Part shown: positions 1,709 through 24,002 of the stretch, one piece after another
Numbering within the stretch: the stretch's first letter is position 1
How the letters are laid out: each line of letters begins with the position of its first letter
Source: Nitrospirota bacterium
GTDB lineage: Bacteria; Nitrospirota; Nitrospiria; Nitrospirales; Nitrospiraceae
Direction: 5' to 3'
Length of the DNA: 64,000 nt
Assembly: GCA_004296885.1 (NCBI GenBank)
Contig: SCVN01000002.1
Location: forward strand, 62,001-126,000
Notes under the pieces: model-generated
The model's database searches: none
What the model was told of the DNA's origin: nothing
The model's input: only the letters and a program-made list of their open reading frames with translations
Translations under genes and position numbers: made by a program

Positions 1709-2644
1709 TCAAGTCGAGATGTTCAGCCAGGCACCCTTCGTGGCCACCGCCAGGCTGTGCTGCCCCGGCTGCTTGGCCCTGTACAAGGCCGCTTCGGCCG
1801 CGCAGGCCAGCGCATCGGCCGGGCGCCGCTCCTGCATCCCGCCCGCGGCTGCGATGCCGGCGCTGAGCGTGATGCGGATCGTGCCTTCGTCCAACGCGAT
1901 CGGCTGCGCGGAGACCGAGGTGCGCAGGCGCTCCGCCAGCGCCGTTGCGAGCGGCTCGTCGCAGCCGGGCAGAATGGCCAGGAACTGGTCGCCGCCGTAG
2001 CGGCCCAGGACGTCATAGGGGCGCAGGGAGCGACGGAGACGTTGACCCACCTGGCGCAGGGCTCCGTCCCCGGCGCGCCGTCCGAGCGTATCGTTCACGA
2101 GGCGAAAATCGTCCACATCGAGCAGGACGAAGCCCAGTGGGGCGCCCTCGCGCCGGGCCCGGTCCAACTCGCGGTCCATGCTGTCGGTCAGGGCTTCGCG
2201 GTTCCACAGGCCGGTCACGGGATCCTGTAGGGTCTTGACGCGAAGCGTCTCCTGCGCCGAGGCCAGTTCCCGACGCAACTCCAAGACCTTCTGGCCGGCA
2301 TGGAGACGAAACTGCAACTGGTCGGCATCCACCGGCTTGAGCAGGGCATCATCGGCGCCCGCGTCCAACGCGGCCAGGGGAACTTGGTCCGCGTCCGGCT
2401 TGCACAAGAGCAACAGATACGTCTGCACCGCAGACTGCTTCCTGACCGCCCGGCAAATCTTCGGGCCGTCGAGTTCGGCCAGGCTCCAATCGAGCAGGGC
2501 ATAGTCGAAGGGCGTTGCTCCGAGCAGCAACTGGAGGGCCGCCACCCCGTCGGCGCAGCCGGCGACCTCGTGGCCCCATTGGGTGAGAGCAGTTTCCAGC
2601 ACGCGGCGTGCGAGCGCGTCTGCTTCGGCGATCAGGACCCGCAC
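1709..2644 (-). CDS. Response regulator with GGDEF domain (variant GGDQF)
   Basis: A 311-residue protein starting at a GTG behind an AAGGAGG site. Residues 1-120 form a receiver domain (MRVLIAEADALARR, then YALLDWSLAELDG with the expected phosphoacceptor Asp). Residues about 150-305 form a GGDEF domain: LGFVLLDVDDFRLVND carries the first metal-binding Asp. The signature is GRYGGDQF, so the fourth signature residue, normally Glu and a metal ligand, is Gln. An RxxD inhibitory-site motif (RPYD) lies five residues before the signature. Known family members make cyclic-di-GMP; the Gln change may weaken or abolish activity. It is the first gene of the HDOD operon. Confidence 0.88.
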   Translation of the reverse strand: MRVLIAEADALARRVLETALTQWGHEVAGCADGVAALQLLLGATPFDYALLDWSLAELDGPKICRAVRKQSAVQTYLLLLCKPDADQVPLAALDAGADDALLKPVDADQLQFRLHAGQKVLELRRELASAQETLRVKTLQDPVTGLWNREALTDSMDRELDRARREGAPLGFVLLDVDDFRLVNDTLGRRAGDGALRQVGQRLRRSLRPYDVLGRYGGDQFLAILPGCDEPLATALAERLRTSVSAQPIALDEGTIRITLSAGIAAAGGMQERRPADALACAAEAALYRAKQPGQHSLAVATKGAWLNIST

Positions 2645-3056
2645 GGCGCCTCCTTCAATCTCATTTTGCTCGTTGCTCGGGGTTGGCTTACGGAGGGGGC
2701 GGACCCCTGGATCGACCGCAGCCGTCCGTCCGCCTCACGGGCTCAGGACCCACCCCGCCCTGTTTCCTCATCGGCTCGGCTCGGCAAGAACTTGAGGCCG
2801 ACTCGGTTGATTTTTCAACGGTCTTGGCGTACTTCTAGCTCCTCAAACAAGCAGCGTAATCGGTTGTCAGTACTCAGTTTCCGGAACCGACCAGGGAGCG
2901 CAGAAAACGTCTTGTTCATGCTTCACGCACGACGAACCGGAGGAGGGCCTTTTTGACCATCCTGCGGGGGATTCTCATGTCGTCCCCGGCCATCGAGCCA
3001 TTGGTGTCCGAGTGGGTCCAAAATAGTTTTTCAACAGCCTGTTAGGGGAGAATCGC
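2645..3056. other. Intergenic region with degenerate repeat fragments
   Basis: A 412-base gap between the divergent GGDEF and oxidoreductase genes. I see no convincing gene in it. The stretches tttttcaacgg (about 2812), cctttttgaccatcctgcgg (about 2948) and tttttcaacagcctgttagg (about 3026) resemble the ends of the dispersed elements annotated at 18163, 23817 and 34041, so decayed copies of such repeats probably lie here. The last 14 bases hold the AGGGGAG ribosome binding site of the downstream oxidoreductase. Promoters for both flanking genes must be here, but I cannot place them confidently. Confidence 0.4.
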
Positions 3057-4022
3057 GTGAGCATCGGGATGGGATTGATCGGTTTGGGGCGCCACGGGGC
3101 TCGTTATGCCAAGCATCTCTTGGCCGGAGTGCCAGGCTGCCGGTTGGTTGCCGTGTCGCGTCAGGATATCCGGGCGGGCGCGCAGTTTGCCGAGGAGCAT
3201 GGCATTCCCTTTTATGCCGACTGGCGGGATCTGCTGCGGCGGTCCGACGTGCAGGCGGTACTGGTTGTGACGCCCCCGTCGCTGAATCGGGAGATCTGCC
3301 TGGCGGCGGCCCAGGCCGGCAAAGCCCTCTTGATCGAGAAACCCTTGGCCTGCTCGACGGCCGAGGCCACAGCCATGGTGGAGGCGGCCCAGGCCGCCGG
3401 GGTTCCGCTCATGACCGCCCAGACGCTCCGCTTCACGCCGGTGCTGCGTCGGCTGCGCGAACAGCTGGCGACGATCGGCCCGGTGGAATTTTTCTCCCTG
3501 TGCATGCGGGCGGAGCGGCCGCCTCATGCCTGGTTGGACCAGAAGGACAAAGCCGGCGGCGGGGTGGTGCTGGAGATCGGCATCCACCACTTCGACCTGC
3601 TCCGGTACCTGACCGGGCAGGACGTGATCGAGGTTCGGGCCGAGACGGCCAGACGGCACACCAAGCAAGTCGAAGACCTGGCGCAAGTCCGGTTCACGTT
3701 GGCGTCCGGCGCCGCGTGCTTTGTCGAGTTGTCCCGTGTCTCCGGAGGCCGCCTCTGCCGCGCGGAAGCCATCGGGCAGAAGGGACAGTTGACGGCGGAC
3801 GTGGGGACCAGCACCCTGACCAGGATCGAGGGGTGGAAGGTGGTGGAAGTGGAATCCGTGCCGGATCGCCCGACGATCGAGATCGTGCTGGAGGCATTTG
3901 CGCGCTGTCTGAAGGACAAGGCCCCGATGCCGGTGTCCGGCGAGGACGGCCTGCGCGCCGTGGCCATGGCGGAAGCGGCCTACCGCTCCGCCGCCCTGGG
4001 CAAGCCGGTGGATGTTGGATAA
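3057..4022 (+). CDS. Gfo/Idh/MocA family NAD(P)-dependent oxidoreductase
   Basis: A 321-residue protein starting at GTG 3057 behind AGGGGAG. Residues 1-120 form a Rossmann domain (MGLIGLGRHGARYAKHL, GxGxxG-like). The family motif EKP occurs in LLIEKPLACSTAEA, whose lysine is typically near the active site. The C-terminal alpha/beta domain includes GGGVVLEIGIHHFDLLRYLTG with the conserved H-x2-D-hydrophobic pattern. Family members oxidise or reduce sugar and inositol-type substrates with NAD(P); the substrate here cannot be told from sequence. The gene stands alone, 81 bases before a DedA gene. Confidence 0.88.
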   Translation: MSIGMGLIGLGRHGARYAKHLLAGVPGCRLVAVSRQDIRAGAQFAEEHGIPFYADWRDLLRRSDVQAVLVVTPPSLNREICLAAAQAGKALLIEKPLACSTAEATAMVEAAQAAGVPLMTAQTLRFTPVLRRLREQLATIGPVEFFSLCMRAERPPHAWLDQKDKAGGGVVLEIGIHHFDLLRYLTGQDVIEVRAETARRHTKQVEDLAQVRFTLASGAACFVELSRVSGGRLCRAEAIGQKGQLTADVGTSTLTRIEGWKVVEVESVPDRPTIEIVLEAFARCLKDKAPMPVSGEDGLRAVAMAEAAYRSAALGKPVDVG

Positions 4023-12646: not shown

Positions 12647-13204
12647 ATGAGTCCAAAGCCCGGACCGATTCGCATCGGTGTGATTGCCGACACCCATGGG
12701 TTGTTCGACCAAGCCATCCTGCGGCATTTCGTTGGCGTCAATCACATCCTGCACGCGGGGGACATCGGAGGTCGGCCACGGGGAGGGGACGCGTCTTGGC
12801 GCGTCCGGGGTGGGAGGGTGAAAAAGCTCATTGAGCAACTGGAGCGGATTGCCCCGGTCACGGCCGTGTCGGGCAATGTGGACGGCTACGAGCAGAGCGG
12901 AGTTCCGGGCGAAACGGTCATGGAGCTTGGCGGCAAACGGATCGCTCTCCGGCACATCCTCTACGAAGGCGGCAAACTGACCAAAGGGGGGCGGGCATTT
13001 CTGGAGCGGGAACAGCCGGACATCTGCATCTTCGGCCACACGCACCAGCAGAAGGCCGAGTGGCTGGGCAAGTCCTTCCTCTTCAATCCCGGCTCAGCCG
13101 GCCCTAAGCGCTTCAGGTTGACCCGCGGGCTGGGAATTCTTACCATCGAGTCCGGTGCGATCACGACGAAACACATCGCACTGGCTGACCGGCCCGAGGC
13201 ATAA
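12647..13204 (+). CDS. YfcE-like metallophosphoesterase with in-frame repeat insertion
   Basis: A 185-residue calcineurin-like phosphoesterase: IGVIADTHG (D-x-H), HAGDIG, GNVDG (GNxD) and IFGHTHQ (GHTH) supply the two-metal site. Members such as YfcE and MJ0936 hydrolyse phosphodiesters. Between HAGDIG and KKLIEQLERIAP there are about 17 extra residues (GRPRGGDASWRVRGGRV), where homologues normally go almost directly into the next helix. The DNA under this insert (about 12775-12826) resembles the intergenic repeat at 23931-23980, so the insert looks like a repeat element that kept the frame. The surface position suggests the enzyme may still fold. Confidence 0.85.
   Translation: MSPKPGPIRIGVIADTHGLFDQAILRHFVGVNHILHAGDIGGRPRGGDASWRVRGGRVKKLIEQLERIAPVTAVSGNVDGYEQSGVPGETVMELGGKRIALRHILYEGGKLTKGGRAFLEREQPDICIFGHTHQQKAEWLGKSFLFNPGSAGPKRFRLTRGLGILTIESGAITTKHIALADRPEA
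12775..12826 (+). repeat. Dispersed repeat inserted in frame within the phosphoesterase gene
   Basis: The segment containing GCGTCTTGGCGC (12791-12802) followed by a GGGGTGGGAGGGTG tail aligns with GCGTCTTGGCGC plus GGGTGGGCGGGTG at 23948-23976. Similarity also extends upstream (GCCACGGGG against GCCACGGGA). About 26 of 30 bases match in the core. One copy is intergenic and one is coding. Confidence 0.6.
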
Positions 13205-21733: not shown

Positions 21734-23803
21734 TTACTTGTGCTGGGCCACGTAGACCCCGTTCCAATCCTCGGGCGGGGGCGAAGCCAGCAAGGCCCGG
21801 CTGCGGCGCAGGTAGAGCGAACTGGGTCCGTCCTCTGGCATGTCGGCCTGGATCGTTTCGAACAAAGCCGCCGCCTCCGCCCACCGCCGGGATCGGTAGA
21901 GCGCGATGCCCCGCTCGTAGGCGGTCACGAAGGCCGCTCTCGCCGGTTCGAGCTCGCCCGCCCGGCTCAACACTTCATAGACCGCCAACGGCTCCGCCCG
22001 CCCTTTCACCGCGACGAGGTCGAGAAACCGGTAGAGAAAGGCCTCGCCTGCCTCGGCCTTGACGGCCTCGCCGACCACGAGCCTGGTCCCATATTCCTTG
22101 CTGAGGCCCTCCAGCCGCGCCGCGACGTTCACCGTGTCCCCCATCACCGTGTACGCGAGCCGGTCCCGCGAGCCCATGTTCCCCACGACCATCGGACCGG
22201 TGTTGATGCCGATCCCCACATCCAGGTTGCGCAGGCCCCGTCGTTGCCAGTCGGCGTTCAGCAAGCGGAGCCGTGCGATCATGTCGAGCGCGGTGCGGCA
22301 GGCGCGCCGGGCATGGTCCGGCTGTGCCATCGGGGCGTTCCAGAAGGCCATGATCGCGTCGCCGATATACTTGTCCAGCACCCCGTCGTGCCGGAACACG
22401 ATCTCGGTCATCGCCGTCATGTATTCGTTCAGCAGGGCCACCAGCGCCTGGGGTTCCAGCGCGTGGGACAGGGTGGTAAAGCCGCGCAGATCGGAGAAGA
22501 GCACCGTCATGGTCCTGGTGTCGCCGCCCAGCTTCAGCCGCTCCGGGTCCTTCAGCGCCCAGTGGCTGACGGACGGCGACAGATAGCGGGCCATGACGCC
22601 CCGGATCATCTTCTGCTCCGCCTGCTCGAAGGCCACGCGGTAGACCATGGCGGCGGCGAAGCCGAGCAGCAGCGCGCCGGGCGGGTAGACGAGATTGAGC
22701 ACCACTCCGTTGTCAAACAGCAGGCCGGCGGCCAACCAATACAGGCCGAGGGCCCCGATCACCCCGAGGGCGGCATGGCGCGGGCCGCCGACCGCCACCA
22801 GCAGCGAGGCCAGGACGGCCGAGGCGACGATCAAGAGGATGGTGGTCCCGTCCGACACAGGGACCAGGAACCGCTGACGGAGAATGGTTTCCACCGCGTT
22901 GGCCAGGACCTCGACGCCCCACATACGTGTCTCCGCCGTGGTCGGGGTGGCAAACTCATCCACCCCGCGGATCGTTAGGCCGATCAGCACGATCTTGTCC
23001 CGTACCAGCGCCGGGTTGAAAGAACTGTCCAGAATCGAAGCGAAAGGCAGGATCGTGAACGGGCCGCCATGCTCGGGACTGGAGGGGCCGCCGAGGAAAT
23101 TGATCCGCATGCTGCCGGTCTGTCCGACGGGAATGGCCCGCCCGGCGCCGAAGATCAGGGCCCCGGCCGCCGGTTCGTCGATCACGCCGGGCCGCCGGAC
23201 GAAGCGCGCCACGGCGGTCAGGGCCAGCGCCGGCACGATGTCGGGCCCGGCTGTCAGTTGGAGCGGCAAGCTGCGGACCACCGTGTCCTGGTCGGTGGTC
23301 ACGTTGACGAACCCTTCGGCGACGGCCGCATCCCTGATCGCGGCGGTGGGACGCACGAAGACGTCGAACTCCTGGGCAATACCGGGACGCGGGACGAGGT
23401 CCTTGGGGCCCTGGGCTTCGACCGGGGTGACGACGATCCCCGCCCGCCGGATGGCCGCCGCGACCGTCGGGTCTTCCGGCGTGGGCGCATCGAAGAAAAT
23501 ATCGAACGCTACGACCCTGGCGCCGGCTTCATGCAGCCGGTCCACCGCCTGGGCATAGAGGGTCCTGGGCCAGTTCACCAGCGGACCGTACCGGGGGAGC
23601 AGGGCGCGGTAGCTGCGCTGGTCGATGCCGACGATCACCGTGGCCTGCGCCGGGTCCGTCCCTTGCGACGCAAACAGGAAATCGGTGCTGTGGATCTGGG
23701 TCGTGGACAAGAAGGTCAAGCGGTAGGCTGCGGTCAACAGCGAGGCGACCGCCAGGGCCAGCGCGCCGCTGACGAGCAACCGCCGCTTGGTGCTCCGCGT
23801 CAT
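21734..23803 (-). CDS. CHASE2-domain class III adenylate/guanylate cyclase
   Basis: A 689-residue membrane protein. After an N-terminal membrane segment, CHASE2 (about 25-330; TVIVGIDQRSYRAL, VAFDIFFDAPTPEDP, LRDKIVLIGLT-type motif) would sense a periplasmic signal. Three hydrophobic segments follow. The class III cyclase domain begins near residue 435: VLFSDLRGFTTLS supplies one metal Asp and LDKYIGDAIMAFW the second Asp plus the substrate-choosing Lys. MGDTVNVAARLEGLSKEYG carries the Asn and Arg of the transition-state site. All key residues are present, so it should make cAMP. It ends six bases from the convergent FecR gene. Confidence 0.9.
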   Translation of the reverse strand: MTRSTKRRLLVSGALALAVASLLTAAYRLTFLSTTQIHSTDFLFASQGTDPAQATVIVGIDQRSYRALLPRYGPLVNWPRTLYAQAVDRLHEAGARVVAFDIFFDAPTPEDPTVAAAIRRAGIVVTPVEAQGPKDLVPRPGIAQEFDVFVRPTAAIRDAAVAEGFVNVTTDQDTVVRSLPLQLTAGPDIVPALALTAVARFVRRPGVIDEPAAGALIFGAGRAIPVGQTGSMRINFLGGPSSPEHGGPFTILPFASILDSSFNPALVRDKIVLIGLTIRGVDEFATPTTAETRMWGVEVLANAVETILRQRFLVPVSDGTTILLIVASAVLASLLVAVGGPRHAALGVIGALGLYWLAAGLLFDNGVVLNLVYPPGALLLGFAAAMVYRVAFEQAEQKMIRGVMARYLSPSVSHWALKDPERLKLGGDTRTMTVLFSDLRGFTTLSHALEPQALVALLNEYMTAMTEIVFRHDGVLDKYIGDAIMAFWNAPMAQPDHARRACRTALDMIARLRLLNADWQRRGLRNLDVGIGINTGPMVVGNMGSRDRLAYTVMGDTVNVAARLEGLSKEYGTRLVVGEAVKAEAGEAFLYRFLDLVAVKGRAEPLAVYEVLSRAGELEPARAAFVTAYERGIALYRSRRWAEAAALFETIQADMPEDGPSSLYLRRSRALLASPPPEDWNGVYVAQHK

Positions 23804-23816
23804 GGGCGGATTCTAG

Positions 23817-24002
23817 CAGGATGTTGAAAAAGTCCGCCAGCTTTGTTCTCGCATCGCTCTTGAACCCTGTGCATCGTGAGGCGTGAAGCGTAGGGCACAG
23901 AGAAAACGGATGGAAGGCGCGCTGCGGACGAGCCACGGGAACGGCGTGCGTCTTGGCGCATGCGGGTGGGCGGGTGTGACGGTGGCCTTTTGCCCATCCT
24001 GC
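23817..24002. repeat. Dispersed intergenic repeat (partial, second type)
   Basis: It begins CAGGATGTTGAAAAAGTCC, close to the left end of the 18163 element, and ends TGGCCTTTTGCCCATCCTGCGG. The middle (23931-23980) is the segment also found in frame inside the phosphoesterase gene at 12775-12826. It probably represents a composite or diverged member of the same repeat family. Confidence 0.55.

Follow-up and report, generated by a model that had tools for sequence, protein, structure and literature searches.

Introduction

The palindromic repeats best known for entering proteins are the Rickettsia palindromic elements (RPEs), which measured about 150 bp as first reported, according to the excerpts of PMC10969869. 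RPE-1, RPE-4, and RPE-6 lie between genes and also in frame inside unrelated genes. A second group is represented by the GTAG and CGTC REPs, described in the excerpts of PMC3733652 as small hairpins, mostly intergenic, some of which lie in frame in enzyme genes; intragenic REPs are known there from several species (e.g., Opitutus terrae and Thauera), and the CGTC REPs have no dedicated transposase. The original prediction for the locus studied here, according to which repeat DNA that becomes protein without breaking the frame is rare outside Rickettsia, was thus right about the insertion of such DNA and too restrictive about its hosts: in-frame palindromes outside that genus were already known (PMC3733652, in part), and what appears to be new is a unit of the Nitrospiraceae that lacks the REP tags.

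In the present work we analysed a stretch of 64,000 nucleotides from a Nitrospirota bacterium (assembly GCA_004296885.1, contig SCVN01000002.1, positions 62,001 to 126,000; hereafter, the window), in which a repeat unit of 45 nt lies within a gene of the YfcE family. Like RPE-1, RPE-4, and RPE-6, this palindromic unit occupies intergenic DNA as well as unrelated genes, where it is in frame and is missing from the orthologues; it differs from the RPEs, which were compared by description, in being 45 nt long rather than about 150 bp (PMC10969869, in part), in belonging to another phylum, and in consisting of one hairpin and a G-rich tail, with exact 45-nt steps and self-nesting. With the GTAG/CGTC REPs, it shares the small size of the hairpin, the mostly intergenic location, and the occasional in-frame presence in enzyme genes, but it carries no terminal GTAG or CGTC tag and has conserved unpaired arms; moreover, its copies are arranged head-to-tail or nested, in contrast with the head-to-head dimers of the REPs (PMC3733652, in part). 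In its behaviour, the unit resembles the RPEs and the intragenic REPs.

The string "Nitrospir" is absent from the main text of PMC3733652. RepRanger predicted 3,788 REP-like hairpins in Nitrospira moscoviensis (PMC12306157, in part), and the excerpted passages of that paper do not describe the unit; a search for Nitrospira repeats, REPs, MITEs, and palindromes among open-licence papers retrieved none dealing with it. The best explanation of the data as a whole, to which we assign a probability of about 85%, is that the yfcE insert is a copy of a discrete, non-autonomous, mobile hairpin module of 45 nt belonging to the Nitrospiraceae.

The YfcE-family gene and its insert

The phosphodiesterase gene spans positions 12647-13204 of the window (plus strand) and codes for a protein of 185 residues containing the insert; the 45-nt unit occupies positions 12777-12821 (plus strand) and is in frame, corresponding to residues from about 44 to 58. 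The product, which had been proposed to be a YfcE-like phosphoesterase, exceeds the curated cut-off of TIGR00040 (74.6 bits against 56.25) and harbors a Metallophos_2 domain. Both the insert and the intergenic repeat that it was said to resemble (23931-23980) were located where the original prediction had placed them, and the similarity between them was retrieved by BLAST (E 1.8e-4, 80% over query bases 10-55). The predicted insertion was confirmed, and its predicted length of 17 residues was not: the net gain compared to the orthologues is 48 nt (16 residues), made up of the discrete unit of 45 nt (12777-12821) and of 3 nt that sit beside it. The match of the covariance model to this copy corresponds to G000:C2:74772-74824.

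The comparison of orthologues included 36 gene-bearing loci (L014-L049), three of which (L032, L034, and L037) gave no single alignment across the site. The insert is present in three loci, that is, the window's own copy (L047), that of the sister genome G001 (L048), and L014; it is absent from all 30 of the other loci aligned across the site, which range from Nitrospira to other phyla. The number of independent loci is slightly below 30, since identity values are equal for L014 and L048 and again for L015 and L049, and each pair probably represents one genome in two collections. In a fourth genome of the genus (G003), no match to the YfcE protein was found at E ≤ 1e-20. On the basis of these alignments, the insert is a derived character, with the sister genome as the sole sharer among the aligned loci.

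The presence of the insert in the sister genome might also be explained by assuming that the added residues were present in the ancestral protein and were lost by the other lineages, and that their likeness to the repeat is due to chance. This possibility appears extremely improbable: no distant orthologue among those spanned shares the insert; its DNA matches a repeat family with E values down to 1e-13 (with a model trained on it) and with a BLAST E of 6.8e-10; and other genes read the unit in different frames and from the opposite strand. The ancestral reading was therefore rejected through the orthologue comparison, and the insert-free orthologues, together with the repeat family, bear out the idea of repeat DNA inserted in frame.

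The AlphaFold2 model of the protein (19 aligned sequences) has a mean pLDDT of 88.2, and the only stretch of at least three residues with pLDDT below 50 comprises residues 44-54, inside the insert. The model fits a flexible loop located just after the GDIG motif, a metal-site motif of the YfcE family.

Some Nitrospira yfcE genes are apparently broken by other sequences: in L033 (about 3153-3337) and L034 (about 3110-3340) by a different palindromic repeat with ends like GCCCGCATTATTCATGAA, and in L035 (about 1904-3001) by a longer segment that contains small ORFs and a unit-free copy of the carrier repeat described below.

Structure of the 45-nt unit

The unit runs from CACGGG through a hairpin to GGGGTGGGAGGGTGA. 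In the yfcE gene, the hairpin (GGACGCG-TCTTGG-CGCGTCC) occupies positions 12787-12806 (plus strand; z -4.1 when folded as DNA), and the G-rich tail GGGGTGGGAGGGTGA, which is conserved in the family alignment, occupies positions 12807-12821 (plus strand). The second copy in the window, found with both BLAST and the covariance model, is intergenic and 44 nt long (23934-23977, plus strand). Overall, the unit has precise ends, C[AT]CGGG ... GGGTG[A/T]; its stem measures about 7-8 bp and closes a conserved TCTT/TCTTGG loop, and the conserved, unpaired arms measure about 10 and 15 nt; four of the eight pairs of the hairpin show changes on both sides in the family alignment. The unit is stop-free in several reading frames. 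The length of the copies varies by at least one base, the model matches being 53 nt long in 96 cases out of 181, 52 nt in 46, and 54 nt in 18.

The tail at 12807-12821, like those of other copies, contains three runs of G, and the 5' end frequently supplies a fourth one; judging from the sequence, a G-quadruplex could conceivably form around the hairpin.

Distribution of the repeat family

Probing the window's own 3.26-Mb genome with the 64 nt around the yfcE insert retrieved, besides the query itself, nine places with E values between 6.8e-10 and 1.8e-4, together with three weaker matches. A covariance model (R1) was built from ten copies (53 positions and 8 pairs); both window copies are among them, so their matches, including that of the intergenic copy (E 7.2e-11), are obtained by construction. 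At E ≤ 1, R1 matches the window's genome 24 times (22 of them at E ≤ 2.5e-5), and the three other genomes of the same genus 9, 17, and 7 times. Out of 118 Nitrospirota genomes sampled, R1 matches at E ≤ 0.001 were found in 21 of the 22 Nitrospiraceae (family f1) and in none of the 96 from outside this family (77 match-free genomes being reported as a tally rather than individually). In a sample of the family, 134 genomes out of 147 have a match at the laxer threshold of E ≤ 0.1, and in 129 of these, by our reading, the best E value does not exceed 0.001; the copy numbers of this sample are to be read as "at least", 39 candidates per genome having been scored. The search of eight loci against Rfam gave nothing at the unit, and two weak matches elsewhere (23.3 and 19.9 bits, against gathering thresholds of 40 and 90).

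For the analysis of the genomic context, 184 R1 matches (80 + 104) were considered and 181 were used, after dropping L014 (the same as L059), the second match of L237 (the same place as in L081), and the weak match of L279; the removal of one more with an equal context left 180 distinct contexts. These copies, fetched as R1 matches, are a non-random set, including all those listed in the four genus mates and in G007, G018, G020, G022, G024, G026, and G033, as well as the best matches from other genomes. They are short, numerous, and mostly intergenic.

Carrier repeat, nested, and tandem copies

The second window copy is embedded in a longer carrier repeat, CAGGATGTTGAAAAAG ... CATCCTG, delimited by eye at 23817-24001 (plus strand), with approximate limits and degenerate ends. 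The carrier, whose pattern is CTGCGGCC..GC ... GCCTTTTTGA.CATCCTG, was found both with and without the unit. In the unit-free form the spacer is of 5 nt in 16 cases out of 21 (4 or 6 in the other five), and in the unit-bearing form it is of 50 nt in 39 out of 72 (49-52 in 66 of them); the modal values, 50 versus 5, thus differ by the same 45-nt step. The carrier loci were mostly fetched via the unit, and the ratio between the two forms is therefore meaningless. A carrier-like context surrounds 74 of the 181 copies. Between positions 23700 and 24100 of the window, no inverted repeat of at least 12 nt was found around the intergenic copy. The better copies of the carrier have inverted ends, as MITEs do; the unit, unlike MITEs, ends in no more than CAC...GTG and has no visible target duplication.

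In L081, L089, L092, and L107, the unit lies in a second type of flank, with GCGCGCAG just downstream, which suggests that it may occupy at least two carriers. Moreover, the 3' end of the carrier runs into the apparent signal-peptide starts of downstream ORFs in L004 (about 1440-1500, minus reading) and L002 (about 1555-1620).

The unit also enters itself. In two FAD-dependent oxidoreductase genes (L133 and L138), the insert is 90 nt long, with a second unit within the loop of the first one, and is in frame; L131 harbors an insert of 102 nt and L132 a remnant of 24 nt, both in frame. Nested units were found in L290 and L292 too, and head-to-tail copies in L289 and L250, the L289 array extending over positions 1110-1247 with a 44-nt period by our own count.

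Copies inside other genes

The original prediction called for the repeat to be looked for within further genes, and this search was positive. Within open frames, and with coding-like flanks on either side, copies were found in genes for FAD-dependent oxidoreductases (L007 and L060), a CusA-like pump (L095 and L096), MiaB (L211), citrate synthase (L291), and alpha/beta hydrolases (L085 and L290), as well as in a short protein (L075) and in a membrane-protein-like ORF (L265). MiaB and citrate synthase score above the NCBIfam cut-offs; family matches of the oxidoreductase and of the L290 hydrolase stay below the cut-off, and L075 has no NCBIfam match. The names of the CusA-like pump, the L085 hydrolase, and the L265 product are putative and based on motifs; L265, L290, and L075 were taken as genes by coding score alone. 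The reading frame of the unit differs among genes, and the unit is antisense in L085, L290, L075, and L265. A control on the flanks of the 180 distinct contexts gave ten copies with coding-like flanks in one open frame and one (L120) with discordant flanks; L059 and L085 fell below the score threshold of this control. The open frames over the copies of L206, L221, L223, L253, L100, and L111 were rejected as genes, having a weak coding score or being antisense to a likely gene.

Insert-free orthologues were compared for yfcE, the oxidoreductase, CusA, the L085 hydrolase, and MiaB. The insert is lacking in 17 of the 24 oxidoreductase rows, in 30 of 32 for the CusA-like pump, in 23 of 25 for the hydrolase, and in 29 of 30 for MiaB, and the step relative to these orthologues is of 45 nt in all four genes (for CusA, relative to the 11 closest orthologues, the remaining 19 having loops of other lengths). 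For citrate synthase, the PDB sequences leave a gap at the insert in both alignments shown, and the gap at the MiaB site relative to the PDB sequence is of 10 residues, not 15. Judged by these predicted proteins, which look intact, repeat DNA would now be part of several enzymes.

The same nucleotide occupied in separate lineages

In the oxidoreductase gene, the insert lies at one nucleotide in separate lineages. The tree of this gene is based on the 24 places, out of 39, for which there were loci; seven of its 24 rows bear the insert, and it requires four changes of state, at least three of them forced by well-supported branches, the inner branches being partly weak (11 out of 21 starred). 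Similarly, the two hydrolase copies do not form one clade (p-AU 0.018, for a group defined after seeing the data). Repeated insertion is the preferred reading for these two sites. That the inserts are old, and were later removed precisely or propagated by local gene conversion, represents a less probable though serious possibility, in keeping with the likeness of the nested 90-nt form in three lineages (L131, L133, and L138); the changes of state on the oxidoreductase tree, set against its many empty rows, argue for repeated gain instead, as do the separate placement of the hydrolase copies and the flanks of L133, which resemble those of its genus mate L139 and not those of L131.

The identity within the insert exceeds that of the rest of the gene, being 43/45 versus 425/513 for yfcE, 43/45 versus 1149/1283 for the oxidoreductase, 37/45 versus 558/812 for the hydrolase, and 45/45 versus 2339/2780 for CusA. 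In the last case, the copy is common to two genera, with all of its bases equal and the gene outside it 84% identical, and transfer is possible in this case.

Insertion mechanism and Y1 transposases

According to the best explanation, the module enters as a block of 45 nt, mostly in intergenic DNA (often inside the carrier repeat) and sometimes in genes. Since 45 is divisible by three, each copy within a gene lengthens the predicted product by 15 residues, which would probably form a loop that the host protein tolerates. No target duplication is visible at the insertions. In three clean empty sites, the insertion point is directly followed by GA (GAA in the oxidoreductase, GAC in CusA, and mostly GAC in MiaB); the empty site of the hydrolase has no GA there. 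The two bases following the 178 copies with a GGGTGN end are GA in 95 cases and AA in 61. We infer that the module moves as a whole, that it prefers sites directly 5' of GA, and that its intragenic copies are translated and tolerated. No transposition event or mobilising enzyme was seen. Insertion beside GA without target duplication recalls, by analogy, single-strand transposition next to a short fixed site.

These features, together with the small hairpin and with the presence of a Y1 gene in 96 of the 147 genomes of the family, would also suit a REP that a Y1 (RAYT) transposase mobilises in trans via single-stranded DNA. We consider this unlikely: the terminal tags are lacking, CGTC being found only at the stem and loop; no Y1 gene was found at E ≤ 1e-5 in G000 (the window's genome), G001, G002, G007 (which has 44 copies of the unit), and G026; and, unlike in a REPtron (a REP with its RAYT), the unit does not flank the Y1 gene in any of the 30 Y1 loci inspected (about 1.5 kb on each side; 30 of a larger number of Y1 places). 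As far as tested, an association with RAYTs was thus rejected.

A more far-reaching proposal, which we put forward tentatively and hold to be rather less probable than its contrary, is that the module is a site-preferring mobile hairpin locked at 45 nt, which is moved by non-RAYT machinery, revisits one nucleotide in separate lineages, and enters its own loop, representing a natural element for the frame-sparing insertion of peptides.

Conclusions

PMC3733652 leaves open, as far as its excerpts go, how small hairpin repeats can move when they have no dedicated transposase. The exact step of 45 nt offers a handle on the movement of such repeats, as do the nesting of the unit in itself and the changes of state at a single nucleotide, and the clean empty sites make the fate of the inserts traceable among close relatives. 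For the annotation of Nitrospira enzymes, loops of this kind are to be regarded as insertions. The mobile 45-nt module would extend protein-coding selfish palindromes to a widespread, free-living family.
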